Source: a virus
Length of the DNA: 31,626 nucleotides
IMG/VR virus record: IMGVR_UViG_3300034102_000739
Span: 1-31,626 of that record
Strand: one strand, 5' to 3'
Position numbers and translations under genes: made by a program. Below the pieces are notes generated by a model. That model ran no database searches. It saw only the letters and a list, made by a program, of their open reading frames with translations, and was not told the DNA's origin. Shown in pieces: positions 3,832-26,418 of this stretch; the first letter of the stretch is position 1, and every line of letters begins with the position of its first letter.

Positions 3832-3848
3832 ACGTCTATTTATTTGGC

Positions 3849-4715: not shown

Positions 4716-4724
4716 GATTTGTCC

Positions 4725-5936: not shown

Positions 5937-6846
5937 CGTCTCGTTCCCAATTATAAATTATATATTTGTCTCTCCACTGTGGCAAACTTTCTCCATAGTG
6001 TTCTATCAATCCATTTAATATCGTATCTGGTGTTTCTTTAAATTCAAAATCGTATGTCTGTTCAAACAAAGTTGTATCTAATGCAAAGTCATAGGCATTG
6101 GCGGTATTGCCCTTGTCTACTATCTCAGCACCAAGTTTCCTACTAACAGCTTCGGCTATCTCACCAACTGTGGCATTGAAACTGCTTAGGTTGTAGATAC
6201 CCGGCACCGGCTGTTCGACACAACGTTCTACCGCACGGCATAGGTCTTCTATACCTAACATGGCACGACTGATGTGACTATTACTTACTTGTATACCTCG
6301 GTCATTCTGCACACTGTGATACATACTGTTGATCATCACATCAACACGTAGATTAGCACTATATCCGTTGACTGTGCCAAATCTTAAACCTATTACACGC
6401 TTGCCTGTTAAGTTAGCGATCGTTGCCTGCTGATCTAAAGCATACTTAGTAACATCATAGTTGTTGACTGGAGTGAAATGTGTATTAGTTTCTTTGTGAC
6501 GTTCGCCTGGTGCACTGTTACCATACACACTAGCACTGCTAGCATAGATGACCAATTGATCATCTAGTTTATCTAGTAAGTCTGTAAAGTTAGTGACGTT
6601 GTTTAACCACGGTCCTGGAAGTGCTCCATTACAGCTTGGCACACTGCTGTGTCCTGCAAGCACTATGACTGCTTCAACCTCTGCTAATTCTTTCCTTGTC
6701 AGCTTATGGTAATCTCTGCGGTCACTGGTTTCGTCATGGTTAAACCAACAGATGTCGTTGGTCTTAACAAAGTGTCGTTCCCTTAGGACTTCTCTGAGCC
6801 TAGTGCCAATATAACCCGCGCCACCTAGAATTAATATTTTTTTCAT
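5923..6846 (-). CDS. Extended SDR: NAD-dependent sugar epimerase/dehydratase
   Basis: A 307-residue extended short-chain dehydrogenase/reductase acting on nucleotide sugars. It has GGAGYIG at residues 8-14, a Ser-rich strand YASSASVYG at 101-109 and the catalytic Tyr130-xxx-Lys134 (YDVTK). The ATG at 6846 overlaps the upstream stop (TGATG); a TTG one codon earlier is less likely. It probably reduces or epimerises the 4-keto sugar made by the 4,6-dehydratase-like enzyme encoded at 7592-8623, or works after the C-methyltransferase. The exact reaction cannot be read from the motifs. Confidence 0.85.
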   Translation of the reverse strand: MKKILILGGAGYIGTRLREVLRERHFVKTNDICWFNHDETSDRRDYHKLTRKELAEVEAVIVLAGHSSVPSCNGALPGPWLNNVTNFTDLLDKLDDQLVIYASSASVYGNSAPGERHKETNTHFTPVNNYDVTKYALDQQATIANLTGKRVIGLRFGTVNGYSANLRVDVMINSMYHSVQNDRGIQVSNSHISRAMLGIEDLCRAVERCVEQPVPGIYNLSSFNATVGEIAEAVSRKLGAEIVDKGNTANAYDFALDTTLFEQTYDFEFKETPDTILNGLIEHYGESLPQWRDKYIIYNWERDDARR

Positions 6847-7583
6847 CAATCAATGATCATCATGCCATTAGGTGCAATGTTTCCTTGCAAGCCAACAATG
6901 TCCAATTCAACTAGTTTATCTTTGGGAATAAATTTAGCCATCGCATGTTCGTTATCGATATACTTGTTCTGATTAAATAATCCTACCATAGTTTCGATGA
7001 TTTTATTATACATACCAATAGTATCAACTAATAGACTAGGGGTAAATGACCATAAGCGTGTTTGTAATAAGGTATTCACTCCAGTATCGGCTGGGTTAAT
7101 CCAACTTGGTTGTGCTTTCTTAAACACGTACTTGTCTTTAGTAGTAGCATTATCAAATTGTTTAATATCAAACTTATCTGTGACTTGATAGCGACCACTG
7201 AGCTTAAAAATACGATCAGCATCTTTAACTTCGTTCATCATATCTTTGTCATTGCTGATATAAGTCAGAGCTTTCATGATACCCAATGCTTCCATGGCAT
7301 TCTTACCAATGTCGTAGTTCTGTACATTTTCGTGGAAGTACTTAATATCGTCGTCATCACTGTTGTCAATGTAGTAGTCAACTAGGTCAATGAGTTCTTC
7401 AAATTCTGCACTGGTATCATTCTGTACATCAACTTTGCTGTTGTCTACTAGAACGATAACCGCACCAGGAATATATTTCTTAGCACTTTTAGCTGTATCT
7501 AAAGTCTGTTGAATACGTTGTGTAGGATCATAAATGCCATAGTTGGTATATACTGCCGATGTTAATAATACAATATTTTTCAT
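6846..7583 (-). CDS. Unknown protein, possibly glycosyltransferase-like
   Basis: I start this 245-residue protein at the ATG at 7583 (MKNIVLLTSAVYTNYG). AAGGA lies just before it, and the longer reading frame would overlap the upstream gene by 40 bases. The N-terminus alternates beta strand and loop: IVLLTSAVYTNYGIYD, RIQQTLDT and IVLVDNSKV. That is reminiscent of a GT-A Rossmann-like fold whose 'DNS' loop stands where family-2 enzymes have DDGS. RIFKLSGRY at about residues 141-149 also resembles phage glycan-locus proteins. The family is not recognised with confidence; its place between two sugar-nucleotide enzymes suggests a carbohydrate role. Confidence 0.75.
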   Translation of the reverse strand: MKNIVLLTSAVYTNYGIYDPTQRIQQTLDTAKSAKKYIPGAVIVLVDNSKVDVQNDTSAEFEELIDLVDYYIDNSDDDDIKYFHENVQNYDIGKNAMEALGIMKALTYISNDKDMMNEVKDADRIFKLSGRYQVTDKFDIKQFDNATTKDKYVFKKAQPSWINPADTGVNTLLQTRLWSFTPSLLVDTIGMYNKIIETMVGLFNQNKYIDNEHAMAKFIPKDKLVELDIVGLQGNIAPNGMMIID

Positions 7584-7591
7584 ATTAGTCC

Positions 7592-8623
7592 TTATTCGCA
7601 ACGTAACCAACGGTCGTTCTTCAACGTCCATTCAACCACTTCACCGATACGTTCTGTTAAACTAACCTTAGGTTCCCAACCTAAACTGCGCATGTAGTCA
7701 CCACTCAGAGCATAACGCAGGTCATGTCCTGGGCGTGAGCTATGGAAGTCAACCATTTCGTACTTCAATTCTTTTCCTTGCGCATCAGCGATAATCTGTG
7801 CTAGTTGTAAATTGTTAATTTCTTGTTTGCCTACTAGATTGAATTTAGGACATTTAGCTTCACCATAATCTGCTTCTAGTTTAGTATCATCTAATCCTAG
7901 CAAGAACATCATAGCATCAGCTACGTCTGCCGCATGGATATAGAAACGACTACCCGGAATAGTCCTAGTTGCGTCACTGTGGATGGTAATAGCATCGCCA
8001 TCATTTACCTTACGGATACACATCGGAATAAACTTCTCTGGGTGCTGTCTTTGTCCGAATACGTTCATCGTATGTGTGATATAGATAGGCATCTTGTAGG
8101 TATTTTCAAATGCCACTGCTAGTTCTTCACCGCCAGCTTTAGTTGCTGAATATGGATTACTAGAATTGTAACGATCACGCTCAGCATAGTTAACACCATT
8201 AGGTGCTGGACCAAATACTTCGTCTGTTGAGAAGTATATAAAACGTTCTAGATTTTTTAGTTTACGACTAAACTCTAAGATATGACCTGTGCCTACTACG
8301 TTGTCCCAGACAAACTCCATCGGAAATTCAATACTGCGATCAACATGACTGCCAGCGGCCAAATGTAGGACATAGTTCACATCACCGATATCACGTGCTA
8401 CCATTGGATTTAATTCAGCACGTAGATCATGGAATACGATCTTTACACGCTTACGTGTTTCTGTATCAAAATCAGCCATCATATCTGATAAGCGATTTAG
8501 ATTGCCCGAGAAGTCTAGTCTGTCTAAGCTGACTACGTTCCAATCGGTATTTCTTAAAATATTTTCAATAACGTGGTGTGCGATAAAACCCGCACCGCCA
8601 GTCACTAAGACGGTTTTTGACAT
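7592..8623 (-). CDS. dTDP-glucose 4,6-dehydratase-like enzyme (RmlB family)
   Basis: A 343-residue extended SDR with all active-site features of nucleotide-sugar 4,6-dehydratases. These are GGAGFIA at 9-15, LHLAAGSHVDRS at 86-97, FSTDEVFG at 131-138 (Thr133, Asp134, Glu135) and YSATK (Tyr158, Lys162). NVFGQRQHPEKFIP follows in the substrate domain. The expected reaction is NDP-hexose to NDP-4-keto-6-deoxyhexose, the entry step for the methyltransferases and SDR downstream. It is about full length for the family. AATAAATA, a T4-late-like box, lies at 8670-8663, and CTGGAG precedes the start. The nucleotide (dTDP, UDP, GDP or CDP) is not certain. Confidence 0.88.
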   Translation of the reverse strand: MSKTVLVTGGAGFIAHHVIENILRNTDWNVVSLDRLDFSGNLNRLSDMMADFDTETRKRVKIVFHDLRAELNPMVARDIGDVNYVLHLAAGSHVDRSIEFPMEFVWDNVVGTGHILEFSRKLKNLERFIYFSTDEVFGPAPNGVNYAERDRYNSSNPYSATKAGGEELAVAFENTYKMPIYITHTMNVFGQRQHPEKFIPMCIRKVNDGDAITIHSDATRTIPGSRFYIHAADVADAMMFLLGLDDTKLEADYGEAKCPKFNLVGKQEINNLQLAQIIADAQGKELKYEMVDFHSSRPGHDLRYALSGDYMRSLGWEPKVSLTERIGEVVEWTLKNDRWLRCE

Positions 8624-9681: not shown

Positions 9682-10971
9682 TTAATAACGATAACTATCG
9701 GGTTTGTATGGGCCATCGACAGCAACGTTAATATACTCTGCTTGTCTGGTAGTCAACGCTGTTAATTCTGCACCGATCTTAGCCAAATGTAATTGAGCAA
9801 CCTTCTCATCCAAATGTTTTGGCAATAGATATAGGTAACCAATTTGATAATCATCAAAGTTATTGAACATTTCGATCTGTGCTAGAACTTGGTTAGTGAA
9901 TGAATTACTCATTACATAGCTAGGATGTCCTGTAGCACAACCTAGGTTTACTAATCTACCCTTGGCCAAAAGAATAATACGTTTATTATCTGGAAATATA
10001 ATGTGATCAACTTGTGGTTTAATTTCTTCCCATTGGCAATAATCTTGTAAACTTGCAACATCAATTTCACTATCAAAATGGCCAATATTACATACTATAG
10101 AATTATTTTTCATTTTTAACATATCGCCATACGTAATAACATCAATATTACCCGTAGCTGTGACAAAGATGTCGGCCTTGTCTGCGGCATAATCCATGGT
10201 AACCACACGGTAGCCTTCCATGGCTGCCTGTAGTGCGCAAATTGGATCAATCTCAGTTACCCAAACTTGTGCTGATAATGCACGAAGTGCGGCTGCTGAT
10301 CCTTTACCCACATCACCAAATCCTGCTACTACGGCTACTTTACCTGCGATCATCACGTCAGTGGCACGTTTAATACCATCAACCAATGATTCACGGCAAC
10401 CATATAAGTTGTCAAACTTAGCTTTGGTTACTGAATCGTTAACGTTGATAGCACGTAACTTAAATTCACCCTTGGCCATTGCTTCATTGATTTTATGGAT
10501 ACCAGTTGTGGTTTCTTCTGTAACACCACGGATGCCTTCTAATAGATGCGGATGTTTTTCATGAATATACCATGTAAGGTCATGACCATCATCAAGCAAC
10601 ATATTTGGCTGCCAATCGTTTGGACCACTAACTGTCTGTTCAATACACCACCAGTATTCTTCTTCTGTTTCGCCTTTCCAAGCAAATACAGGGATTCCTT
10701 GATCAGCAAGTGCGGCGGCGGCGTGATCCTGTGTTGAAAATATGTTGCAACTTGACCAACGCACTTCAGCACCTAAAGCTATTAATGTTTCGACTAATAC
10801 TGCTGTTTGGATGGTCATATGCAATGACCCAGCAATACGTGCACCTTTAAGTGGTTGGGCTTCTAAATATTCTGCTTTGACTGCCATTAATCCTGGCATC
10901 TCTGTTTCAGCGATAGCGATTTCTTTATGCCCCCATGCAGAAAGGCTAATATCTTTTACTTTGTAATCCAT
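9682..10971 (-). CDS. ahcY: S-adenosylhomocysteinase
   Basis: A full-length (429-aa) AhcY, which hydrolyses S-adenosylhomocysteine to adenosine and homocysteine using bound NAD. Visible features are [19 protein letters not shown] with His51, the LLDDGHDLT substrate loop, [14 protein letters not shown] (Lys183, Asp187, Asn188), the NAD loop GFGDVGKG at 217-224, and [15 protein letters not shown]. It ends in the conserved KPDSYRY tail. Every expected residue is present, so the enzyme should be active. An AAAGGAG ribosome binding site precedes the ATG directly after the NeuD-like gene. In the cell it would remove the inhibitory product of SAM-dependent methyltransferases, several of which are encoded here. 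Confidence 0.97.
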
Positions 10972-10972
10972 G

Positions 10973-11671
10973 TTACTCCTTTTTTAAATCAAGTCTTCGT
11001 AATATTTTACCAGTATTTGTAATAAATTTACCATCTGGTACATCTTTAAATATAGTACTGCCTGCCATAATCTTTGCATCATTGCCAACTGTTAATATTT
11101 TATCAGCATACCCATTAACAATCTTTGACCCTGCACCAATCATAACATTATCACCAATATTAATAAATCCCGCAATAAAACTATACGGGGTCATAATTAC
11201 ATTTTCTCCTAATCGCACATCATGGGCAATAGCAGCACCGCTATCAAGGAAGCAAAAATCACCTATGTGAGATTTAGCTCTCACATAACAGTCTCGAGCA
11301 ATAATCACACTAGATCCGATATAGGTTTTGGGACTCACATACGAGGATGGGTGTATGAGATTAGCCATCGGTAAATTATGTTCTTTAAATATTTTAATTC
11401 GACGTTTTCTCAGATTATCCCCGTTGTGCTCAAAATTCTTTATATTAATATGACCAGCATAATTAGAACTTAGAACAAAATCATATTTTTTAATATCGTC
11501 AGCAGTAATTTTTTCTTCGTCACCAATGAATGGAATATCATCGACACTTTCTGTATTACCATAAAAATATTTGTCAAATATCCCAGCAATTTCTATACCC
11601 AATTCATTGGCTATATCCACCAATGAATCAAGCCCGGCTCGATAACCAACTAGTGCTATAGGCTTACTCAT
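10973..11671 (-). CDS. NeuD/PglD-like sugar O/N-acyltransferase
   Basis: The 232-residue protein has the NeuD/PglD layout. An N-terminal Rossmann-like domain ([18 protein letters not shown], then IAGIFDK) covers about residues 1-85. A left-handed beta-helix built from hexapeptide repeats follows, from [13 protein letters not shown] through [30 protein letters not shown] and [10 protein letters not shown]. The His-Asp pair in [12 protein letters not shown] matches the catalytic His region. Relatives acetylate sialic acids or amino-sugar nucleotides. It overlaps the desaturase gene by 4 bases (ATGA). The acyl donor and sugar are unknown. Confidence 0.85.
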
Positions 11672-12714
11672 GTTGGATTTGGCACAGCTAGGCTGTCATC
11701 TTGTTTATTTTTAGTTACTACTGCCTGAATTTCATCAAACATGGCTTGCCCTCTACGTACACTATCATAAGGTAAAGGTGGGCGATCATTTACCTCACCT
11801 ATGTGTTTAATAATTTTTCCGGATATATCAAATTCTCCAGGTAATATAGCATTGTTCCACAACCATGGACAGGTATGATGTGTATTATGATATCCTTCGC
11901 CCATTAGTAAAAATTGCCATACATGTGAATTGTATGTATAATCATCACTCTTATAAATGCGCCAAGTATCAGTACGATATCCAAAACGTCCATTGGTTGG
12001 TATATGTGCTATAACGGTAACCCAACTAATGCCAGTGAATACATATAATACAGGCAAGCAATAAAAATATCCTGCATATATAGGATCGATTAAAAATAAC
12101 CCCAATGCATAAGCATAGATAACTTTATAATAATTTTTATGAAACCATTTATGGCCAGGGTCAACCGTAAGGTCTTTGATCAACATAGGACTAATGGGAT
12201 ATGTTGGAAAATAATAAAAATAAACTTTAATCTTATGCCACAAACTGCCGGCAGGTCTGTGCGGATCGCCAGTTTTATCAGTGAATCTATGATGTTCACG
12301 GTGTCCTGCAGCCCAACTGATAGTACTACCTAAGGTACATAACGATCCGAAAAATAATATAATTGTTTTCCAGAATGTATTCTTAGGTGCAAATGTTCGA
12401 TGTGAAGCCCACTTGTGTAAGCAAATACTAACGCCAATTCCAAATAATATCCAGCCACATAATAAAGCTATTAAAAACAATTTCCAATTAAAGAAAAATA
12501 ATAAAGTAATCGCACTACCAATATAGGCAATAGCCTGCGCTATTTTTACTTTACTGTCATTTGTAAAAAATTTTGTTTCAAAAAGTAGATATAATATCGG
12601 TATGGCAGTTAATACCACCAGCATATTCCAAGCAGGTGAGGTAAATGCCAACAGACCCGCCGCCATTAATGCGTATAATCCCAAGAATCTTAGATGTTTA
12701 GATGTTTTAACCAT
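11668..12714 (-). CDS. Membrane fatty-acid (acyl) desaturase, delta-9 type
   Basis: A 348-residue integral membrane di-iron desaturase. Paired hydrophobic segments occupy residues about 10-95 and 195-240. The three histidine boxes are intact: HKWASH (100-105), HREHH (138-142) and HNTHH (276-280). TGDPHRP after box 2 matches acyl-CoA/acyl-lipid delta-9 desaturases. The enzyme would put a double bond into membrane-lipid acyl chains, using O2 and a host electron donor, and so raise membrane fluidity. It has its own leader with a late-type box at 12868-12861 and tandem hairpins, and it is coupled to the NeuD-like gene. Activity is likely from the motifs; the biological purpose in a phage is inferred. 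Confidence 0.92.
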   Translation of the reverse strand: MVKTSKHLRFLGLYALMAAGLLAFTSPAWNMLVVLTAIPILYLLFETKFFTNDSKVKIAQAIAYIGSAITLLFFFNWKLFLIALLCGWILFGIGVSICLHKWASHRTFAPKNTFWKTIILFFGSLCTLGSTISWAAGHREHHRFTDKTGDPHRPAGSLWHKIKVYFYYFPTYPISPMLIKDLTVDPGHKWFHKNYYKVIYAYALGLFLIDPIYAGYFYCLPVLYVFTGISWVTVIAHIPTNGRFGYRTDTWRIYKSDDYTYNSHVWQFLLMGEGYHNTHHTCPWLWNNAILPGEFDISGKIIKHIGEVNDRPPLPYDSVRRGQAMFDEIQAVVTKNKQDDSLAVPNPT

Positions 12715-12869: not shown

Positions 12870-13079
12870 CTAAGACGGAATAGTACCGCTATTATTCCTA
12901 TTTCCACCTTTGGCTGCTACCGATGGGTCACTAAACTTGCGATTTTTAGCAGAGGCCAATGCAGCTTCAGCGTCGATCATCGCTTTTTTATAGAGGTTAC
13001 GTGCTATCGGGTCAGTATAACTAGCTAGTTTATATTTTGTTACTCTTGACATATTAAAATTTGCATTAGTTTTTGCCAT
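12870..13079 (-). CDS. Small basic protein, unknown (69 aa)
   Basis: A 69-residue, Lys/Arg/Ala/Asn-rich protein beginning MAKTNANFNMSRVTKYKL. A central helical stretch (RNLYKKAMIDAEAALASAKNR) is followed by a Gly/Asn/Ser-rich tail. It has an AAGGAAT ribosome binding site and a near-perfect sigma70 promoter upstream (13139-13110), so it is probably transcribed early as a short unit. The family is not recognised; the basic, partly disordered composition would suit a nucleic-acid-binding or host-takeover protein, but that is only a guess. Confidence 0.7.
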   Translation of the reverse strand: MAKTNANFNMSRVTKYKLASYTDPIARNLYKKAMIDAEAALASAKNRKFSDPSVAAKGGNRNNSGTIPS

Positions 13080-13109: not shown

Positions 13110-13139
13110 ATTATAGCTGGTTATCTATCTTAATGTCAA
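13110..13139 (-). promoter_or_regulatory. Sigma70-type promoter TTGACA-N18-TATAAT
   Basis: Both hexamers are perfect consensus on the minus strand (13139-13134 and 13115-13110), 18 bases apart. The predicted start at about 13103 leaves a short leader to the ATG at 13079. The -35 box overlaps the end of the upstream gene. Confidence 0.8.
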
Positions 13140-13934
13140 CTGTTTATTGACATGTTCTAATACTGCTTTTGCACTATCGATATTCATATATTTTAAAGGT
13201 TGGGTGAGAAATTTAATAGTATCTTGCTTAGACCAGTCGTGTTGGAAAAAATCCTGCCAGGTATTAATAGCAGGTTGGGGGATAGCATTATAACTAGTCC
13301 ACCCACTCTGATTAGTCTTATATATGCCCAATAATTCAAACTCACTAAACCATTTAATTTCTTCAAAAGATCTAGCATTTGGCACAGCGTCCAACCACTC
13401 ACATCCGTTATATTCTTTAATTAATTGTTTAAGAGATAGCCAATCTTGTTTACTATATGGCATAAGTTCATTTACTAAACTATAATTAAGTGTACGTTTA
13501 AGGCCCGTAAGTTTTTCTACCATTTCAGCATACAATTCTTGATATGGATTCCAAAGATTTTCAACTTTAAAATTAAGTTTGCTTTCTACAAAGAAATCAA
13601 ATTGTTTAAGAGGAACCTGATCACAATCTTGGATTAAAAAATATTCGCTGTTAAAATGGTCTAAACTACACAGCTTTAGTGCCTGTTGATAATACCAATG
13701 GTCTTTTTTCCAACGTGTAAGATCATAGTAATCTTCAAAATATAAATCGTCTAATAGTGTATATTTAGAGCTATCTAAATTAAATTCTGCAAACGTTTTA
13801 TCAATTACATGCTGGGGATATGGGCTAACAATATATGTTATATCAGGGAGAGGATTTAAATTATAATCAAACGATAAAGTAACCGCGGCTTCGTTAATTC
13901 TACCAGGGCCAATGAAAATTATTCTGGTAATCAT
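13125..13934 (-). CDS. Glycosyltransferase-like protein (resembles DUF6492)
   Basis: I use the ATG at 13934, which overlaps the upstream stop (ATGA), giving 269 residues starting MITRIIFIGPGR. The N-terminal half reads as a GT-A-like fold: IIFIGPGRI, ITYIVSPYP, WYYQQALKLC, and YFLIQDCDQVPL, where the D-C-D could serve as the metal-binding DxD. MPYSKQDW and the C-terminal EIKWFSEFELLG resemble the DUF6492 group of phage and bacterial glycosyltransferase-like proteins, but I place it there from memory only. It ends the operon begun by the cupin gene at 18520. Confidence 0.75.
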   Translation of the reverse strand: MITRIIFIGPGRINEAAVTLSFDYNLNPLPDITYIVSPYPQHVIDKTFAEFNLDSSKYTLLDDLYFEDYYDLTRWKKDHWYYQQALKLCSLDHFNSEYFLIQDCDQVPLKQFDFFVESKLNFKVENLWNPYQELYAEMVEKLTGLKRTLNYSLVNELMPYSKQDWLSLKQLIKEYNGCEWLDAVPNARSFEEIKWFSEFELLGIYKTNQSGWTSYNAIPQPAINTWQDFFQHDWSKQDTIKFLTQPLKYMNIDSAKAVLEHVNKQLTLR

Positions 13935-15022
13935 TTTTGTAAATGTTTTGTAAACCACTCTTTAGGATGGCATTCATAATTAAACACGTGCCCGTGTGCT
14001 TTCATCGGTATACGAGCCATAGATAAAAATGCGGCATTACGTGCTTGACGTAATAGATCAACGTCTTGATCAGGATTAATATCTAATTCTGATATATGAG
14101 ATTTCCAAAATAGAGGAATATCTTCTTTGGTCCAACGTGCTTCTGCACCATTTGGGTCTATACTGTACAATCTTTCTGCCGCTGAATATAGATTTGTCCA
14201 TCCTTCTTTACGTTCTGCATATCCAACTCGTACTTTCATATTATGGTCTAAAAATCCTGGTGGTACAAATAATGGAGGTGCTATAGTGCCTAATAGGTTA
14301 CCTACATGACTATAACCATCATAGTGTCGTATTAACTCTTTTGTGGGAGAATATACTGTGCCGGGTATTTTTAGTCCGTATTGCCAACCAAGCGAGTCTG
14401 ATCGATACATATTATCTTCACCACAATCTGTATCGAACCAATACTTTTTAAATCTACCTGCTTTCATCATCAGTAGACTATCAACAGTATCCCAATGAAA
14501 CTTAATAAAATTACCATCTGGTGTTAATTCACCGTTATGTAACAAGCTCATTCGCATCTGTTCAGGCCAATGACTATAATACATCACTGCTAAGGGATCA
14601 GTATCGGCATTTAATGTGTCAATACTTGCACGAATCATATCCAAGTTACTGTCTATAAAGATATGGTCATCATTGCCTTCGTACCAAACTAGGGTATTGT
14701 CATCAGTGAAACGTTCAGTACACATATCACGCCAGGTCTGTGTGCGGTCAATCCTATACCAATTGATTTCTAATTTGTCTGCGGGGAATATACTCAACAT
14801 ATATTCATGCAATTCTTCCTGACGTGGAGTAAACTCAGCTAGGTCTATGTAGAATACGAAATTGTCTACTACAGGGGCCATTACTGCACGACTAGCAAGA
14901 CAGTATTTAAATATGTCAAATCTATTACTTACAGGAAACCAAGCAGCACGATCGTATACTGTGCCAGCATATGGATGGGTCATCTTAACATCAGTGATCT
15001 TTACATTGAATAAAACGATCAT
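13931..15022 (-). CDS. Glycosyltransferase-like protein, unknown family
   Basis: A 363-residue soluble protein. Features that suggest a GT-A sugar transferase are FVFYIDLAEF at about residues 55-64 and LVWYEGNDDHIFIDSN at about 135-150. There an acidic pair (NDDH) ends a hydrophobic strand, as DxD motifs do. FIKFHWDTVDSLLMMKAGRFKKYW follows, with later Trp/His-rich loops. The ATG overlaps the upstream aldolase-like gene stop (ATGA). The family is not identified. Position next to a sugar-activating fusion and an aldolase-like protein suggests it uses the product of those enzymes. Confidence 0.75.
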   Translation of the reverse strand: MIVLFNVKITDVKMTHPYAGTVYDRAAWFPVSNRFDIFKYCLASRAVMAPVVDNFVFYIDLAEFTPRQEELHEYMLSIFPADKLEINWYRIDRTQTWRDMCTERFTDDNTLVWYEGNDDHIFIDSNLDMIRASIDTLNADTDPLAVMYYSHWPEQMRMSLLHNGELTPDGNFIKFHWDTVDSLLMMKAGRFKKYWFDTDCGEDNMYRSDSLGWQYGLKIPGTVYSPTKELIRHYDGYSHVGNLLGTIAPPLFVPPGFLDHNMKVRVGYAERKEGWTNLYSAAERLYSIDPNGAEARWTKEDIPLFWKSHISELDINPDQDVDLLRQARNAAFLSMARIPMKAHGHVFNYECHPKEWFTKHLQK

Positions 15023-16005
15023 TTCAGATTATTTGTGTATAGATCTAAAACATATTCAATTTCGCTAGTGATCGCAGCTTTCCAATCTGTTCTTTGGTTG
15101 ATTACATTTACCAAGGCTTGATATTTGCTTGATGAAAAACAATAGTGTCCGGCAACATTAATTTGATGTTCACGATCGTTGCTCTCAGTCCATTTACGCC
15201 AACGCCCACTGTCAACTACTTCGGTAGCAAAGTCTGTCCATTGACCTTGCGCATCTGGATGAGCTTCAACTAGTCTACGTAATAGTTTGGTTTGTACTAC
15301 ACCTAGTTGTGGAGCGATATTAAGGGCGTGGACTCCTACAGCACTGCGTAGACGAATTTCTTCAGCTGACAAATAATCAGCATTATGTTCCTTCATCTTG
15401 ACCCCGTTAGCGTTTGCCACTTCAACTAGTTCTTTAACGGTAGCTGTTTCAAATCCGCCCGCCTGATGATCTTCGTGACATAGGCTGCCTGTTTGTGCTA
15501 CAACAAATTGGATGTTAGGAATATTTTTAGCAAACGCTACATCATTCTTATACTTGATAGCACCTGCGGCTACACCTACATTTTCTTCTGTCCCAAATTC
15601 AAATTGTATATTAGGATTAAGATCTAAACAAAATTTAAAAAGTTCTTCGGCGATGCCATAGGTATCTTCAACACGGCTAGTGTCAATATGTATTAGATTA
15701 AATCCTTGTTCAATATCGTAGGCAATGGTTTTCTTCGTTGCCTCAACAGCATCACGTAATGATAAATTCTTTTCTGCATCTAAGAAGTATGGGCCACAAT
15801 GGTCACGGCACATCCAGATATAATCTGTAGGTAATGTGGATAACTGTTCACGTATCTGTGGGGTTGTCATCACATAACCCGTTTCAGCATCGACTTGATT
15901 ACGGCTAGCAATAATCATCAATGGTTTTTTATTATTGTGACTGTAATTACACAATATCTCAATAACTTCGCGGCTCATTGGCCCAAAACCTAATCTAAAA
16001 TTCAT
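15019..16005 (-). CDS. GatZ/KbaZ-like class II aldolase-family protein
   Basis: I start at the ATG at 16005, not the TTG two codons earlier, giving 328 residues. The protein follows the TIM-barrel GatZ/KbaZ pattern (tagatose-bisphosphate aldolase 'non-catalytic' subunit family). It has IIASRNQVDAETGYVMTTP at residues 31-49, CRDHCGPY (66-73) where GatZ has GGDHLGP, LIHIDTS (104-110), an FGTEENVG segment matching IGTEVP, and VVAQTGS. GatZ homologues in polysaccharide loci are thought to act on their own in sugar formation. Next to a KdsC-like phosphatase and a nucleotidyltransferase-kinase, it could form or split a phosphorylated sugar. No GatY-type partner is seen nearby. Substrate unknown. 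Confidence 0.82.
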   Translation of the reverse strand: MNFRLGFGPMSREVIEILCNYSHNNKKPLMIIASRNQVDAETGYVMTTPQIREQLSTLPTDYIWMCRDHCGPYFLDAEKNLSLRDAVEATKKTIAYDIEQGFNLIHIDTSRVEDTYGIAEELFKFCLDLNPNIQFEFGTEENVGVAAGAIKYKNDVAFAKNIPNIQFVVAQTGSLCHEDHQAGGFETATVKELVEVANANGVKMKEHNADYLSAEEIRLRSAVGVHALNIAPQLGVVQTKLLRRLVEAHPDAQGQWTDFATEVVDSGRWRKWTESNDREHQINVAGHYCFSSSKYQALVNVINQRTDWKAAITSEIEYVLDLYTNNLK

Positions 16006-16465
16006 TTTCAATGTCCATTAAATACATAATATGCACGCAGGCTTCCATGACTGCTCCTTTACCGCCTTCACGGTCTGTGACATAGTCTGCGTTTTCGATC
16101 GCTGTTTTCCAAGCCTGAGCCGGAGCAATACTTAATCCTACATGCGGGAATATCTTTGCATCGTAAGGTCCGTCACCCATAAAGATAGTTTCCTTTGGAT
16201 CTCCCTTGCTCAAGACCCATTTAAGTCTATCTTTTTCTTTAACCATAGTACAAGGAAATTTCATATGATCAACGATACGACTTTCTGTAATAGGCCAACC
16301 TACTTCGTCGGCTGATACAAATTCTATTTCTAGATGTTTACGTAAGATTTTAAGTCCATCATGGTCATAGTTACCAAAGGCTTTAAATGGTTTTCCGCCA
16401 GCGTACCAATAGAGCATACCATCGTTTAATACACCATCTACATCCATGATAAAACGTTTATACAT
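15995..16465 (-). CDS. HAD-family sugar phosphatase, KdsC-like
   Basis: A 156-residue HAD hydrolase without a cap domain, the size of KdsC. The nucleophile motif FIMDVDGVLNDG has Asp8 and Asp10. KAFGNYDHDGLKIL matches the KdsC 'K-x-F-x-x-x-D-G' region, and MGDGPYDA (96-103) supplies the Mg-binding acids. GGKGAVMEAC resembles KdsC's C-terminal loop. Family members remove phosphate from KDO-8-P-like sugars, and KdsC forms tetramers. The ATG overlaps the upstream stop (TAATG). The gene is probably co-translated with the NTP-transferase/kinase, so it likely trims a phosphorylated intermediate of that pathway. Confidence 0.88.
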   Translation of the reverse strand: MYKRFIMDVDGVLNDGMLYWYAGGKPFKAFGNYDHDGLKILRKHLEIEFVSADEVGWPITESRIVDHMKFPCTMVKEKDRLKWVLSKGDPKETIFMGDGPYDAKIFPHVGLSIAPAQAWKTAIENADYVTDREGGKGAVMEACVHIMYLMDIENEF

Positions 16466-18069
16466 TATCCAAGCACCTTGCTAAAGTGTAATTGTGCTAA
16501 TGCTATCAAGAACTTGTCAAAAGGTGCTTCATGTAAGGGACTCATGTTCAAATAGATGATTGGCACCAATGTCTTAACCTTCTTCCAATCTAATCCTTGT
16601 TTAACTACCCAACGTTGTAAGATATCTTCATATACCTGAACATCTTTTACGCTGGGAACTTCTATTGTAGCATAGTCATTGCGTTCTGTATAGCTATAAC
16701 GTTCGTGTTTGATGTCTTTATAATTCAGATGTAACCCACCTAGCATCTTAGCTAGATCATAATACTGATCACCGTATAGTGCACCACCAAAGTCAGTGCG
16801 CCAATCGATAGCAGTAAACTTGTCTTTATATGTTTCTTTGTCTTGTTTGTATAGGTCCAACGAACCTAGGTATTGTCCATGTTGATAAATGGTATTATCA
16901 AAGTGTAGGTCACCGTGGATAAACTTCCATGACGTTTCTGTAGTTAACCAAGTAAAGTCAATTTTACTTAGGTATGTGTCGATAGTATCTACTTCGATGC
17001 CGTTGACCACACATGGTTCACTCCAGTTAGCATATTTGGCACGGAACATTTCTACACGTTCTATAGTTTTATCATGATAAAATTTATTACAGATAGTTAG
17101 ATGATCAATATCGGCATGGTTCTCAGCTGGAGCAGGTTTCCATAGTGTTGATTCGCACCACGCAAGCATTTTTTCAAACACTTCTGGTGAGTATTGATTA
17201 TATACAATATCACCTTTGGCAAAGTCATGAATTAGGAAATTACCTGATTGTTCTACATTGCTAGGCATTGCCTCTGGATTACAATTAGCACGCTTGACAC
17301 GCATTTCTGCCTGCTTAGGATTAGTCCAGAACTTGACGATCTTTTTATTATCATTATAGAATAGTTCATCTGGTTTAGGAAAACTTACATCTGTAAATTC
17401 ACTGCTTAGTTCTTCCCACTTTTCATATGTACCAAAGTCTTTCCATCCACGCACTGTGTGTGCTTTTAATTTAAGTCCATCGAATCCTTCAGGAGTTTCT
17501 TTGGCTTTACGATGGATCAAGTTGTTTAGGTATTGATCATCTTTGGCATACATCAAACCAATGAAGGCATCAACTGCGGTCTTGCTAGGTATTTTATTCT
17601 TTACACTGATGATCTTATCAGCTTCACGTTCAATCCAACAGTAGTCCTGTGCGATAGCACTGTCTACCGGATGGACCCCGACCCAATCATGATCTAGTTT
17701 GTCTCGATATTCAAAGTCAAACAGTGTATCGCAGGCCAACCACATGAATCCACCGTGTAGATATTTGGCACAGGCCTGTATGCTGGTCGCTGGTCCAGTA
17801 TCACCTTCTGCATAGTTAGGAATGTCTACAAATACTACATCTTTGTCAGCATGTACAACCCCAACATAATCTTTAATATATTGTCCCATATGACCACAGG
17901 CAACAACAAACCGTGTGCCTTGATCAAACTTAGCCATGATATGACTGATCAAAGGTTTGTTATCATATGGTATAAGTGCTTTAGGAACCATACGACTGAA
18001 CGGACCCATCCTGCGTCCATAGCCAGCGGCTAGGATTAATACTGTTAATTTATTGTTGATGTTCGGCAT
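16465..18069 (-). CDS. Bifunctional sugar nucleotidyltransferase-kinase
   Basis: This 534-residue fusion joins two activating enzymes. Residues about 1-225 are an NTP-transferase domain (RmlA/LicC/GlmU fold): LILAAGYGRRMGP, then VPKALIP, and ACDTLFD as the metal site. Residues about 240-534 are a choline-kinase/APH-type kinase, with the Brenner motif IHGDLHFDN (384-392) and the metal-binding TAIDWRTDF (419-427). The start was chosen at 18069 because GGAAGA stands at the right distance; the longer frame from 18120 overlaps the cupin gene by 71 bases. Kinase and nucleotidyltransferase in one chain recall LicA plus LicC, or HldE, so the product is probably an NDP-activated sugar or alditol. Which one is unknown. 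Confidence 0.87.
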   Translation of the reverse strand: MPNINNKLTVLILAAGYGRRMGPFSRMVPKALIPYDNKPLISHIMAKFDQGTRFVVACGHMGQYIKDYVGVVHADKDVVFVDIPNYAEGDTGPATSIQACAKYLHGGFMWLACDTLFDFEYRDKLDHDWVGVHPVDSAIAQDYCWIEREADKIISVKNKIPSKTAVDAFIGLMYAKDDQYLNNLIHRKAKETPEGFDGLKLKAHTVRGWKDFGTYEKWEELSSEFTDVSFPKPDELFYNDNKKIVKFWTNPKQAEMRVKRANCNPEAMPSNVEQSGNFLIHDFAKGDIVYNQYSPEVFEKMLAWCESTLWKPAPAENHADIDHLTICNKFYHDKTIERVEMFRAKYANWSEPCVVNGIEVDTIDTYLSKIDFTWLTTETSWKFIHGDLHFDNTIYQHGQYLGSLDLYKQDKETYKDKFTAIDWRTDFGGALYGDQYYDLAKMLGGLHLNYKDIKHERYSYTERNDYATIEVPSVKDVQVYEDILQRWVVKQGLDWKKVKTLVPIIYLNMSPLHEAPFDKFLIALAQLHFSKVLG

Positions 18070-18520
18070 CGATTCTTCCATGTCCTCTGTTCGCAGAGTC
18101 TTCAAGACGTATAACGTCATCTAATTGAGTAGTGCTGGCTTCTGTGTAATGTAGATCATCATGTGCAATCATGCGATGGATAGTATGGGGTGGGGTATGG
18201 AACACTGCACCTGGTGCTAGTTCTTCTACGATTAGTTCACTCTTGATTTGTGCTATTTCTTCTGCTGTGTACCCACCTGCTAAGAAACGCTCACAGTCAA
18301 ACGGTTTTGGATGGTATGCTAGTGCACCATGCCCAATGTGTAAATGGATACTTTCTGATTTAAATTGGTGTACTTGTAAGCTGGTTACAAACCCTGCTTT
18401 TAAGATCAATTCTTTGAGTGCAAATGGATAAACATCATTTCCTGGCATTAACCAAGTTTCTGTACCCCATGGTTTATGTACCACGTGGCAATCTTCAATT
18501 CTCAGGAATTCTACAGTCAT
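18050..18520 (-). CDS. Cupin-domain protein (ManC/phosphomannose-isomerase-like)
   Basis: A 156-residue single-domain cupin that resembles the C-terminal mannose-6-phosphate isomerase part of ManC. It has KPWGTETWL at about residues 16-24, then FALKELILKAGFVTSLQVHQF, with metal-ligand candidates in HQFKSESIHLHIG and HTPPHTIHRM. It probably isomerises or binds a sugar phosphate. It is the first gene of its operon, with its own sigma70-like promoter (18569-18541) and GAGG before the ATG. It overlaps the nucleotidyltransferase-kinase start by 20 bases. Catalytic competence is uncertain, as many short cupins of this type are uncharacterised. Confidence 0.8.
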   Translation of the reverse strand: MTVEFLRIEDCHVVHKPWGTETWLMPGNDVYPFALKELILKAGFVTSLQVHQFKSESIHLHIGHGALAYHPKPFDCERFLAGGYTAEEIAQIKSELIVEELAPGAVFHTPPHTIHRMIAHDDLHYTEASTTQLDDVIRLEDSANRGHGRIDAEHQQ

Positions 18521-18540: not shown

Positions 18541-18569
18541 ATTATATACTACTATTTAACTTTTTGCAA
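18541..18569 (-). promoter_or_regulatory. Sigma70-type promoter TTGCAA-N17-TATAAT
   Basis: TTGCAA is at 18569-18564 and a perfect TATAAT at 18546-18541 on the minus strand, 17 bases apart, between the last tRNA and the cupin start. The leader is about 14 bases. Confidence 0.7.
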
Positions 18570-19516: not shown

Positions 19517-21076
19517 TTAAGTTTCAAACCAATTTTTACTGAGTTTATTTTTAATATACTGTGTTTTATATTTGTGTGCTCCAGTCAAAAATAAATTTTT
19601 TAGTAGAATGTTTGGTTTTTTTGCTAATCTTATTATATCTTCCTTGGGTATTCCAACACTTAAAGCTCTTGCTCTAGTCCAAACGCTACAATTAGTGTTC
19701 CATTCTACTGTATATCCAATTGATTTAGCGAATCTTTCAGCAGTGAATGTGTTCCAATGTTGATTCTTCCATAAAATATTATATTTAGATGTAGCATGAA
19801 CTTTTTCAATTGTTAATTGTGGATTTAATGATAATTCAATTTCGATATCCTTCTCAGACATCTCTTCATATCCATATTGCATGTAATTTCTCGAAAATTC
19901 ACTTCCTACTGCAAATGGATTTTCTCTATGAATATCTAATGGATAAATTATTCTACCATTGATTACATCTTTGCCTTTTGTATTAATCCAATCTAGTGTT
20001 AAGTCATTGAATGATTCAAGAGTTTCATTAGGTAACCCCACGATTAATGATAAGTAAATAAATACATCATCTTTAAAATAATCTCTTAATTCAATTAACG
20101 TGTTTTGTAACTTTTCCGGGGGATATCCTTTACCCACTGTTTTCAATGCTGCTGGATTAAATGTTTCTACTCCAAAATGAAAGTTAGTGAACCCAATATC
20201 TTTATATAATTGCCATCTGTCGCGATGCGATGCTAGTAATTCCAATCGTGCAAAACCTGTAAGATCAATTTTAAATGGCAATTTTTGTAATGCGTCTCTC
20301 AAATCTAAAAATTTATCTATGTCGTCGTTGGCTGTTTCATCTGAAAAATAGTAGTTGGTTATACCCCATTTTTCATAATTGTTAAGTAATTCATCATAAT
20401 ATGTTTGTGCTCCTTCACGTTGTAACTCATGTTTCTTTTTACCAATATGCGGATATGTACAAAAAAGGCATTTAAATATGCAGCCTCTTGATGTTCCAAG
20501 TGTTAAAGTTTCATGTTGAGTTAAATAATCGCTCGGGTGATAATCTATAACCATATTTGGTAATTTGTCAGATTTATACTGAACAGCGCAATCAACATAA
20601 TATGCACCATTGACTAGCGTAAATTTTAGATTATTTGATTTTTTTTCTACATGATCGAGAATATCTTGTATTGCATTTTCAGCATATCCGGCAATTAAGT
20701 ATTTGCTTTCAGTAAAATTCAGTAAATTTGTAACTTTAGGTCCGCCTGCAATAAAAACTATGTTGGATTTTATTTGTTTAATGTATTCGCACCATTTTTT
20801 ATAAAAATTAAAATCAAAGAAAAATTGTGCTGACCACCCCACTACGTCAACATAAGGTATCCGATCATTTAATAAATTTTTAATATCAGCGTCAGGCCAA
20901 TAAACCAAAAAATCTATTACTTCAACAGTATGTCCTAAATTGCGCATTTCGGTAGCAATTTTATAAACTCCAGCATTTCTTGAATAAGAAAAACTTTCTT
21001 CAAGCGGTTGCATAGTAGCTATTTGTGCAGATGGAACACTTTCTTCTGCTTGTGACGAAAATAAAATTATATTCAT
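19517..21076 (-). CDS. B12-binding-type radical SAM protein
   Basis: A 519-residue class B-like radical SAM enzyme. Residues about 1-145 form a Rossmann cobalamin-binding-type domain (GVYKIATEMRNLGHTVEVID, VVGWSAQ, FIAGGPK); the usual DxHxxG His is not evident. The 4Fe-4S motif is CIFKCLFC (Cys199, Cys203, Cys206) after TLGTSRGC. YFSDETAND and FHFGVETFNP follow as SAM-domain strands, and the C-terminus is unlike common methylthiotransferases. Relatives do methylations or ring and C-C chemistry on diverse substrates, so the product cannot be predicted. There is no good Shine-Dalgarno sequence. Its base composition looks somewhat more AT-rich than the neighbouring structural-type gene. Confidence 0.87.
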   Translation of the reverse strand: MNIILFSSQAEESVPSAQIATMQPLEESFSYSRNAGVYKIATEMRNLGHTVEVIDFLVYWPDADIKNLLNDRIPYVDVVGWSAQFFFDFNFYKKWCEYIKQIKSNIVFIAGGPKVTNLLNFTESKYLIAGYAENAIQDILDHVEKKSNNLKFTLVNGAYYVDCAVQYKSDKLPNMVIDYHPSDYLTQHETLTLGTSRGCIFKCLFCTYPHIGKKKHELQREGAQTYYDELLNNYEKWGITNYYFSDETANDDIDKFLDLRDALQKLPFKIDLTGFARLELLASHRDRWQLYKDIGFTNFHFGVETFNPAALKTVGKGYPPEKLQNTLIELRDYFKDDVFIYLSLIVGLPNETLESFNDLTLDWINTKGKDVINGRIIYPLDIHRENPFAVGSEFSRNYMQYGYEEMSEKDIEIELSLNPQLTIEKVHATSKYNILWKNQHWNTFTAERFAKSIGYTVEWNTNCSVWTRARALSVGIPKEDIIRLAKKPNILLKNLFLTGAHKYKTQYIKNKLSKNWFET

Positions 21077-23035: not shown

Positions 23036-23043
23036 TATTTATT
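23036..23043 (-). promoter_or_regulatory. Possible T4-type late box AATAAATA
   Basis: A one-base variant of TATAAATA spanning the stop of the nucleotidyltransferase-cupin gene, 27 bases before the ATG of the 153-aa gene. Moderate support only. Confidence 0.4.
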
Positions 23044-23794
23044 GTTTGCGCTCAATGTCATCTTCATCACAGGCTATTCCGTATTGTATTTCTACTATTT
23101 TACAGGGTGTATCGTAGGGATTACTTAGTTTATGCCAGTGTTCTACCGGAATAATACACCCATCATGCGTTGATAATTCCTGGAATCCTTTGTTATTATC
23201 TGTTTCAGTTGCTACAACACAGCGGCCTTCTGTTACATGCCAATGTTCTGCACGATCAAAGTGTCGTTGCATGCTTAGGCTTTTACCTGATTCTATAGTA
23301 AGTTCTTTGACTTTAGTGCCAGATACTTCATGTAGGACACGATAATATCCCCAAGGACGAATAGTTTTAGGAGCTTTCCATTCTTCTAAGATCCAACTGC
23401 TTGAATTCTTTTTATTCTCTCCACCTACTCCAAACGCAAACTCTACATCTTTAACCTCCATCTCTGGAATGTTATTTTCTGTGCGATCTCCACCATTGGC
23501 GAATATGATCTGGCTGTTGGGATATAGATCTTTGACATTGTGTATGGCTTCTAATGCTGTATCATCATCATCGTTAAACAAGATGACTCCGTCGACAAAC
23601 TTAAGATTTTCAATGATAGCCACACGTTCTGTACCAGGCATAAAAGCACGACCTTTTTTGCGGGCAAGCCAGGCATCGCTGTTGACTCCCACTATTAGAA
23701 CATTACCAAGTTGGCGGGCAGCAGTGAGGTATGCTATGTGTCCAGAGTGCGGTGGATCAAATCCCCCTGTACATAATACGACTCTATTGATCAC
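23039..23794 (-). CDS. Cytidylyltransferase-cupin fusion protein
   Basis: A 251-residue protein with two domains. Residues 1-137 are a HIGH-type nucleotidyltransferase (GGFDPPHSGH at 10-19, VGVNSDAW, GTERVAIIENLKFVD, ANGGDRTENNIPE) like the HldE C-domain and glycerol-phosphate cytidylyltransferases. Residues 146-245 are a ManC-type cupin (RPWGYYRVL, QRHFDRAEHWHVTEG, VEHWHKLSNP). The start is GTG overlapping the methyltransferase stop (GTGA), with no nearby ATG. The joined activities suggest that a sugar phosphate is isomerised or bound and then activated as an ADP- or CDP-sugar. That substrate is not determined. Confidence 0.87.
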   Translation of the reverse strand: MINRVVLCTGGFDPPHSGHIAYLTAARQLGNVLIVGVNSDAWLARKKGRAFMPGTERVAIIENLKFVDGVILFNDDDDTALEAIHNVKDLYPNSQIIFANGGDRTENNIPEMEVKDVEFAFGVGGENKKNSSSWILEEWKAPKTIRPWGYYRVLHEVSGTKVKELTIESGKSLSMQRHFDRAEHWHVTEGRCVVATETDNNKGFQELSTHDGCIIPVEHWHKLSNPYDTPCKIVEIQYGIACDEDDIERKQ

Positions 23795-24705: not shown

Positions 24706-25144
24706 CCTCCATGCCTGCTGTTCTTAAACGTGTAACGTGCCCTAACATGAAATTCTTGCTTTCAAGTCCTTTCATGATACCTAACCATTTGTTGCGTAGC
24801 AGTGCTACTTCATTGATGATGGTTTCAAAGTCGATGACTTCGTCTTCACCATCTACATATTTTTCTACATCACGACTACTAAGTACCCGTTGATAGTTTT
24901 CTAGATATTTTTGAAAATGAGTTCTGCGAATCTTACGTAATTTTATATTGAGATAATTCAGCACTGCTTCAATCTCTTGTAGTTGATTAAAGCGTCGTTC
25001 TGTAATACCGGGCAGGCCAGCAAGATTCTTTTCTATGTTACCATAAACTCCAACTTCCTTTCGTGCGTCTTCTAATTCTACTTCATAATGTTGTATGAAG
25101 TCAGGAATTGAATTAAGACTAGCTACTACTCTTGAATACCACAT
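24689..25144 (-). CDS. uvsY: UvsY-like recombination mediator
   Basis: A 151-residue helical protein matching T4-type UvsY, which loads the UvsX recombinase on gp32-covered single-stranded DNA. The C-terminal half aligns with T4 UvsY by eye: VLSSRDVEKYVDGEDEV, then WLGIMKGLESKNFMLGHVTRLR, like the T4 'LDAIKSRGFAIKHIQDMR' tail. The N-terminus is longer than in T4. A GAGGA ribosome binding site precedes the ATG, which overlaps the upstream radical SAM gene by 19 bases. Nearby uvsX and gp32 make the assignment firm. Confidence 0.85.
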   Translation of the reverse strand: MWYSRVVASLNSIPDFIQHYEVELEDARKEVGVYGNIEKNLAGLPGITERRFNQLQEIEAVLNYLNIKLRKIRRTHFQKYLENYQRVLSSRDVEKYVDGEDEVIDFETIINEVALLRNKWLGIMKGLESKNFMLGHVTRLRTAGMEDASIG

Positions 25145-26418
25145 AAGTCCTCGTATTTAATTAACCAGGGAAATAGTTCTCGCCAATTGGTTTTTCTTCT
25201 TTTATCTAATTCATTTAGATATGTTAACAATTTTAATACTTCTTTTGAATTAAATCTACCAGCATTAACATTGTTTACTAATGCTTCAAAATGTTCTTTC
25301 ACTTGTGCACCTCTCCAACTTTGTGTCTCCATTAATGATAGTATACATTTAAACTCTTCTTGAAATTCTTTGGGGCCTAATATATCAGGTGCCATATAGC
25401 TAGGATAAAAAAGTTGAGCAAAATAGTGTTCTATCTTTCTATCTTTAGTCCATTCCTCTAATTTACATAATAATTCTGGTAATGTTTTAATAGTTAGCAC
25501 TGACGTAGTATTATTAATGTTTAATTTAATCCATTTCTCACTAATTAAATATTTGAAATTTTCTTCCCATTTTGTTAATTCAATACCATATCTAACAAAT
25601 TCTTGTTGGGGTCCCCAACAATCAATACTAGCAGTTATATCAAGACGTCCAAGTTTTTTGTTCATTATTAATTTTTTTATAATGTCAATGTAGTTTTTTA
25701 ATTTAGATTTTGATATCATTAAATTGGTTACTATGTTAAGTTCTAAATTAGGACAAGGGTAAGATTCAAATAATTCTAAAAATTTGTCAAATTGAGTTTG
25801 ATAAAAAGGTTCGCCACCTAGTAGTTGTAGTCTTTTTAATTTATAAGCGTTATTTTCCATCCACTGCCAAAATTTCTCTTGTATTTTATCAAAATTTTCT
25901 GGGTGTTTATATTTTGTTTCTAAAATTAATCCATGTTTTTCAAATCTACCAAATTTTTTCATTTCAGCGTGTATCCCTGAACTTAATTCTGGTATACAAT
26001 ATATACATTTCAAATTGCAGGTATTGTCTATATAAACTTCTAGTATCGTTGGATCAATTTCTGTTAGTGTAGGATCATTATCAAGTTCTTCTGGATACAA
26101 ATTAGGTATTGAATTATAAAAGTGCCTATCACTTTTGCCATTATTTTGTTCAAATTTTCCACAGTACTGTTTACAGGTAGTTTCTATTCGATGGTCTGGA
26201 TCTCCATCTGGCCATTGACCGTCTAACATTATTTCTCTTTGTTGTATTTTTTCCGGGGTGTTATGGAAGTTGAAAGTTTCTATGTCAAATGTATGATTGA
26301 CAACTCTATGACAACTTGATGTTAATCCTTGATGCAATACTATTTTACTAAATGACCATTTTGCTAGGCAACTAGTATCTGTTTTTATTGGAAAATATTT
26401 TTTCTCAGTCTGAAACAT
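25126..26418 (-). CDS. Twitch-domain radical SAM protein, copy 2
   Basis: This 430-residue protein is of the N-terminal-twitch radical SAM type seen in marine phages. An N-terminal region holds SCLAKW (Cys17) and LTSSCH (Cys36), followed by NTPEKIQQREIMLDG and CKQYC (82-86). The radical SAM motif is CNLKCIYC (Cys134, Cys138, Cys141), and the GGEP SAM-binding strand (LLGGEPFY) follows. It resembles the gene at 27752-29050 throughout but lacks that copy's CxxC pair before the core, having CKQYC instead. It starts at TAATG after the acidic 81-aa gene. The modification target is unknown; such enzymes often act on peptides or nucleotides. Confidence 0.85.
   Translation of the reverse strand: MFQTEKKYFPIKTDTSCLAKWSFSKIVLHQGLTSSCHRVVNHTFDIETFNFHNTPEKIQQREIMLDGQWPDGDPDHRIETTCKQYCGKFEQNNGKSDRHFYNSIPNLYPEELDNDPTLTEIDPTILEVYIDNTCNLKCIYCIPELSSGIHAEMKKFGRFEKHGLILETKYKHPENFDKIQEKFWQWMENNAYKLKRLQLLGGEPFYQTQFDKFLELFESYPCPNLELNIVTNLMISKSKLKNYIDIIKKLIMNKKLGRLDITASIDCWGPQQEFVRYGIELTKWEENFKYLISEKWIKLNINNTTSVLTIKTLPELLCKLEEWTKDRKIEHYFAQLFYPSYMAPDILGPKEFQEEFKCILSLMETQSWRGAQVKEHFEALVNNVNAGRFNSKEVLKLLTYLNELDKRRKTNWRELFPWLIKYEDLCGIQE

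Follow-up and report, generated by a model that had tools for sequence, protein, structure and literature searches.

A conserved phage gene cassette predicted to make a nucleotide-activated carbohydrate from a ketose phosphate

Six overlapping genes and four enzymes with intact catalytic motifs

We analyzed a 31,626-base stretch of viral DNA, the entire IMG/VR virus record IMGVR_UViG_3300034102_000739 (referred to here as the window), which carries a six-gene block predicted to serve carbohydrate activation. The window contains UvsX-like and UvsY-like genes, and five tRNA genes lie immediately upstream of the block; the window is therefore probably part of a T4-like phage genome. Six consecutive open reading frames (ORFs) fill positions 13125 to 18520 of the minus strand, as the initial annotation had reported. 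In order, they encode a cupin resembling phosphomannose isomerase (PMI), a fusion of a nucleotidyltransferase and an APH-type kinase, a KdsC-type HAD phosphatase, a GatZ/KbaZ-like protein, and two proteins formerly labeled glycosyltransferase (GT)-like. With the starts favored by homologues, successive genes overlap by 20, 1, 11, 4, and 4 nucleotides, an arrangement resembling a translationally coupled operon; the fusion ORF is open from 18120, and its favored start is 18069. Catalytic motifs are intact in all four enzymes, including the HAD and the nucleotidyltransferase and kinase, the two domains whose active sites the initial annotation had proposed to check.

The first gene (18050 to 18520, minus strand) encodes a putative aldose-ketose isomerase of the type II PMI-like cupins. 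The earlier label, ManC-like, is weak for the window protein by itself (PF01050, 12.5 bits against a cutoff of 23.6; E value of 0.17), but relatives from the same cassette match the isomerase half of TIGR01479 (GMP_PMI) at ~1e-9. Profile matches to the cupin include D-lyxose ketol-isomerase (2y0o; 4e-4) and mannose-6-phosphate isomerase (7zvm; 0.007), and residues H51, E56, H115, R138, and D141 are invariant in 24 homologues.

The fusion (16465 to 18069, minus strand; AlphaFold2 [AF2] model with a predicted local distance difference test [pLDDT] score of 90.8) has the two parts that the initial annotation assigned to it. Its nucleotidyltransferase domain (residues 24 to 243; 17392 to 18051) matches NTP_transf_3 at 5e-13 and is of the GalU/RmlA/LicC/MurU type. 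The signature LAAGYGRRM..K and the metal-binding aspartates D131 and D228 are invariant in 57 homologues. Structural alignment with VIA-align placed the fold close to those of GalU (Z of 25.9), LicC (24.6), and MurU (22.6); LicC was also the best single-sequence PDB match, and the MurU equivalog score was below its cutoff (35 versus 250 bits). The predicted kinase domain (residues 246 to 551; 16468 to 17385) carries the motifs HGDLHFDN and IDWR and matches APH with an E value of 0.0035, below the Pfam cutoff; H402, D404, N409, and D439, which make up the HGD..N and DW motifs, are invariant in the same number of homologues (57). A profile of this domain found nothing significant in the PDB, the best match noted being hygromycin-B kinase (6iy9; E value of 0.11), with HGDL..N aligned.

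The third gene (15995 to 16465, minus strand) encodes a KdsC-type (C0) HAD phosphatase, in agreement with its earlier label. It matches TIGR01670 at 65 bits (7e-18), under the cutoff of 107, and its profile matches KdsC structures down to 1e-23. The catalytic aspartates are kept, and D8, D10, D98, and D102 are invariant in 20 homologues.

The fourth gene (15019 to 16005, minus strand) encodes a GatZ/KbaZ-like protein, a putative ketose-phosphate C4-epimerase working by retro-aldol/aldol chemistry. PF08013 is matched above its curated cutoff (38.2 versus 26.7 bits; E value of 9e-10), while the AgaZ/GatZ equivalog TIGR02810 scores below it (34.9 versus 568.8 bits). The initial annotation had called the protein GatZ-like with an aldolase fold; the GatZ-like label holds, but the aldolase reading is not supported, and GatZ and tagatose 4-epimerase outscore all aldolases. 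The AF2 model (pLDDT of 95.5) aligned from end to end with GatZ (2fiq; Z of 31.8), 3txv (30.1), tagatose 4-epimerase (9kcs; 27.3), and UxaE (25.1), whereas class II aldolases reached a Z of at most 21.8 over ~248 residues. GatZ and KbaZ convert fructose-6-phosphate to tagatose-6-phosphate in vivo as C4-epimerases, and for GatZ a Zn site of H88/E171/H257 with D87 as the base has been proposed (PMC11907403). The ligands and base are kept here as H71/E142/H209 and D70: D70, H71, and H209 are invariant in 69/69 homologues, and position 142 holds E in 57 homologues and D in the other 12. The window protein thus has in common with GatZ/KbaZ, the tagatose 4-epimerases, and UxaE a full-length fold, a Zn H/E/H site, and a catalytic Asp, but at 330 amino acids it is shorter than GatZ/KbaZ, and it stands in an anabolic setting.

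A co-inherited core in phages and cells

IMG/VR was searched with the GatZ-like protein and, independently, with the fusion as the seed; GTDB genomes were searched with the GatZ-like protein, and retrieved loci were annotated by iterated profiles. Phage loci were counted after dereplication at 90% identity, with flanking sequence required, and come from the best 80 matches, so that the sample covers nearer relatives. The fusion was present in 36/36 and the cupin in 35/36 GatZ-seeded loci; GatZ and the cupin were each present in 43/43 fusion-seeded loci. About two thirds of the loci carried the KdsC-like HAD (25/36 GatZ-seeded and 27/43 fusion-seeded). The gene at 13931 to 15022 recurred in 18/36 and 14/43 loci, respectively, and the gene at 13125 to 13934 in 1/36 and 1/43. 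The cupin, fusion, and GatZ-like genes are an almost invariant core, and both formerly GT-like genes are variable accessories outside the conserved unit. The parts list for a nucleotide-activated carbohydrate in the initial annotation is borne out as a co-inherited set with intact active sites from which the product is predicted; co-occurrence elsewhere, the absence of which the initial annotation had named as a refutation, is strong for the core and good for the HAD, whereas both GT-like genes fare poorly.

The fusion and GatZ-like genes occur together in ~15 cellular loci, with carriers in Woesearchaeota, Pacearchaeota, several candidate phyla radiation (CPR) phyla, Omnitrophota, Spartobacteria, Legionellaceae, Rhodocyclaceae, and Paraglaciecola. 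The cassette is found across DPANN, CPR, Omnitrophota, Verrucomicrobiota, and Proteobacteria, together with dozens of phage lineages, and the marine virus AG-345-E15 encodes the cupin, fusion, and GatZ-like proteins at ~30% identity. A plasmid search with the Legionellaceae fusion gave no match. In Enterococcus phage 9183 and Klebsiella phage Biddle_MM4, distant versions of the fusion have a small HAD as their neighbor, so phosphatase with kinase/nucleotidyltransferase looks like a recurrent pairing. Some cellular cassettes adjoin LicD, TagD-like, Capsule_synth, Wzx-type flippase, or GT genes, neighbors which suggest that the product is likely destined for a surface polysaccharide. No described cassette with these families was found in the open-access literature. 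The cassette is real, widely conserved, and undescribed.

Parts of the core were also seen in other settings. On a Sinorhizobium plasmid (L242, 11646 to 15483) and in Streptomyces (L198, 8637 to 13901), GatZ-like and cupin genes stand with a DegT aminotransferase, so that the pair apparently reaches into amino-sugar contexts. Apparent GatZ fusions in Streptomyces (L198 and L238) were rejected as artifacts of long GC-rich frames. Three Balneolaceae loci (L183, L187, and L202) carry GatZ-like genes of the same clade with neither the fusion nor the cupin nearby.

Predicted pathway and competing explanations

We propose that the core, usually accompanied by the HAD, converts a central ketose phosphate into a nucleotide-activated carbohydrate of an uncommon kind, and we give this prediction a probability of roughly 0.6. 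It builds on what was seen directly, namely, which genes are present, their conservation and inheritance as a set, their intact active sites, and the folds of the GatZ-like and nucleotidyltransferase parts; from these we infer every substrate, the order in which the reactions occur, and where the product goes. In the proposed pathway, the GatZ-like enzyme would first invert C4 of a ketose phosphate, e.g., fructose-6-phosphate, by a metal-dependent retro-aldol/aldol reaction. The PMI-like cupin would then interconvert ketose phosphate and aldose phosphate; where a lineage has an AroE-like or short-chain dehydrogenase/reductase (SDR) enzyme, the keto group would be reduced instead. The HAD would strip the original phosphate, the APH-type kinase would re-phosphorylate at the position to be activated, which may be an anomeric or a primary hydroxyl, and the fused nucleotidyltransferase would yield a nucleoside diphosphate (NDP)-linked product, which neighboring transferases could attach to a surface glycan. 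If fructose-6-phosphate is the starting compound and the cupin acts as a type II PMI, one may speculate that the product belongs to the talose series.

Several observations weigh against this prediction. The isomerase activity of the cupin is suggested by weak family matches, and the kinase assignment comes from motifs. Lys279 and Glu44 set GatZ/KbaZ apart from aldolases (PMC11907403), but in the window protein these positions align to N231 and I34, and it has in addition an invariant R37/K and K207. With K279 and E44 replaced, the substrate, and even the reaction, may differ, and the protein may act as an aldolase. In favor of the prediction, relatives that share these residues in Firmicutes and Klebsiella are found in fructose-type phosphotransferase system (PTS) operons with transketolase, transaldolase, and HAD genes or beside a ROK kinase, contexts consistent with ketose-phosphate chemistry. 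Also against it, the KdsC-like HAD is missing from about a third of phage loci, and a search for it elsewhere in nine longer HAD-less phage records found none, while the positive control was found; the phosphatase step would then be either not universal or supplied by other enzymes. Some phages have a SnoaL-like gene in place of the HAD. A crude motif scan for other HADs was insensitive, missing the short HAD of locus L012, and so proves little.

Two known systems appear to be better parallels than the synthesis of 3-deoxy-D-manno-octulosonic acid (KDO) to which the initial annotation had compared the block. In Pseudomonas, MupP, AmgK, and MurU recycle N-acetylmuramic acid (MurNAc) to UDP-MurNAc: MurNAc-6-phosphate first loses its phosphate, then gains one at C1, and is finally uridylylated (PMC5371407). 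The common logic is a HAD phosphatase, a kinase (AmgK phosphorylates the anomeric hydroxyl), and a GalU-fold nucleotidyltransferase. In the cassette, however, the kinase and nucleotidyltransferase are fused, the HAD belongs to the KdsC type rather than to HAD_2, the MurU equivalog cutoff is not reached, and there are extra epimerase-like and isomerase-like genes. The CDP-6-D-glucitol and CDP-mannitol pathways (Campylobacter HS:5; pneumococcal Mnp1/2) likewise lead from a ketose phosphate to a nucleotide-linked alditol for surface glycans (PMC10918830), but they have no kinase, phosphatase, or epimerase, and their reductase is an SDR acting on the CDP-ketose, whereas a reductase accompanies the cassette only in sister lineages.

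The reductase bears on whether the product of the window itself could be an NDP-alditol, an idea raised in the initial annotation. In many sister cassettes, a gene resembling AroE (shikimate dehydrogenase) lies between the fusion and the HAD/GatZ genes (19/36 GatZ-seeded and 29/43 fusion-seeded phage loci and seven to eight cellular loci). Its catalytic Lys and Asp are invariant, and the N-terminal shikimate-binding SxS motif is replaced. Five CPR/DPANN loci (L162, L165, L172, L174, and L176) have an SDR at a nearby position instead. An NDP-alditol is therefore possible in these lineages, and CDP-6-glucitol is indeed made by a nucleotidyltransferase and a reductase (PMC10918830); the Paraglaciecola locus, with its LicD and TagD-like genes, points the same way. 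In such a route the ketose phosphate would be epimerized, reduced, dephosphorylated, re-phosphorylated, and activated. For the window lineage, it would require that the reductase was lost, was replaced by an unrecognized enzyme, or is supplied by the host. However, a search of the window and of 14 related records (13 from IMG/VR and including a window-type record of 201 kb) turned up no AroE-like gene, although the positive control succeeded in 5/5 cases; 12 of 13 related records also lack a local AroE-like copy. A pure reduction route would, moreover, leave the isomerase-like cupin superfluous. In the GatZ tree, the phage genes form one group (support of 96/89) beside a CPR/DPANN group. Within the phage group, the window clusters with loci that lack the reductase and is surrounded by loci that carry it, which makes loss in the window lineage the simpler reading. 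A nonhomologous reductase may be encoded elsewhere in window-type phages. The alditol idea gains indirect support from the sister cassettes, but we regard it as unlikely.

Another possibility is that the fusion works in the manner of LicC-LicA and has choline or a different amino alcohol as its substrate, the other genes serving a separate step. LicA-type kinases are APH-like, and the nucleotidyltransferase domain is close to LicC in both sequence and structure, as noted above. GalU is an equally good structural match, though, and the fusion is inseparable from the GatZ-like and cupin genes across large phylogenetic distances, which makes this explanation improbable. Very improbable is KDO-like synthesis, in which the aldolase-fold protein would be a true aldolase condensing two carbon pieces ahead of the HAD and nucleotidyltransferase: the KdsC-type HAD, the relation of the GatZ-like fold to class II aldolases, and the aldolase-like Asn at N231 speak for it, but a Pfam scan of the window proteins found no DAHP-synthase-type family, there is no phosphoenolpyruvate-dependent KdsA relative, the nucleotidyltransferase is of the GalU/LicC/MurU and not the KdsB/CMP type, the closest full-length structures are epimerases, and a KDO-type ulosonic acid needs no kinase.

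Returning to the cassette as a maker of an activated uncommon carbohydrate, we tentatively suggest, at somewhat short of even odds, a more specific version: an undescribed, horizontally spread route from a ketose phosphate to an NDP-linked rare sugar of the talo, tagato, or galacto series or, with a reductase, an NDP-alditol, beginning with GatZ-type C4-epimerization and common to phages, CPR bacteria, DPANN archaea, and Proteobacteria. If the cassette works as proposed, it would give an anabolic role to a GatZ-type epimerase, whose family was long classed as chaperones of aldolases, and would define a sugar-activation module of many environmental phages. Phages could use it to rebuild host surface glycans or to decorate their own particles, and either use would affect host range as well as superinfection exclusion. 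Four small soluble proteins are enough for a direct test of the product, and because the core is constant while the reductase and phosphatase vary, the loci form a natural series in which the steps can be assigned.

Accessory genes, promoter-like sites, and neighboring genes

The two accessory genes, both on the minus strand, had been called GT-like. For the protein encoded at 13931 to 15022, a possible glycosyltransferase, that label is unsupported: no match and no known relative were detected in Pfam, PHROGs, NCBIfam, or PDB. It has a conserved NDDHIFID motif, in which N117, D119, H120, and D124 are invariant. For the gene at 13125 to 13934 (ORF of 13125 to 13958 in the family scan), the label has weak backing; the protein is DUF6492-like (PF20102, 2e-4, below cutoff) and a possible glycosyltransferase, and a longer GT2 protein in locus L167 carries the same domain.

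A consensus scan found a sigma70-like promoter match, TTGCAA-17-TATAAT, preceding the cupin gene (18541 to 18569, minus strand) and a perfect sigma70-type match, TTGACA-18-TATAAT, at 13139 to 13110, at the end of the last gene; such matches occur at near chance frequency in this region. Downstream of the operon, and preceded by this perfect promoter-like site, is a conserved ORF of 69 amino acids (12870 to 13079) that is kept in most window-type phages.

The fructose-type PTS operon with GatZ-like, transketolase, transaldolase, and HAD genes (L243, 1 to 9265; L230; Firmicutes L177 to L237) is itself uncharacterized and is also present on Klebsiella plasmids beside mercury resistance genes.

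Elsewhere in the window, the region adjoining the block (9682 to 12714) encodes an S-adenosylhomocysteine hydrolase (above its equivalog cutoff), a NeuD-like acyltransferase, and a fatty-acid desaturase. A further sugar block at 1348 to 8623 has two GDP-Man-dehydratase/epimerase-type genes, a C-methyltransferase, a TylF O-methyltransferase, and two GT2-like genes. Radical-SAM proteins, one with a B12-binding domain, are encoded at 19517 to 21076, 25126 to 26418, and 27752 to 29050. At 23039 to 23794, a CTP_transf_like (RfaE-C/TagD-type) nucleotidyltransferase is fused to a MannoseP_isomer cupin, the second nucleotidyltransferase-cupin pairing in this phage.

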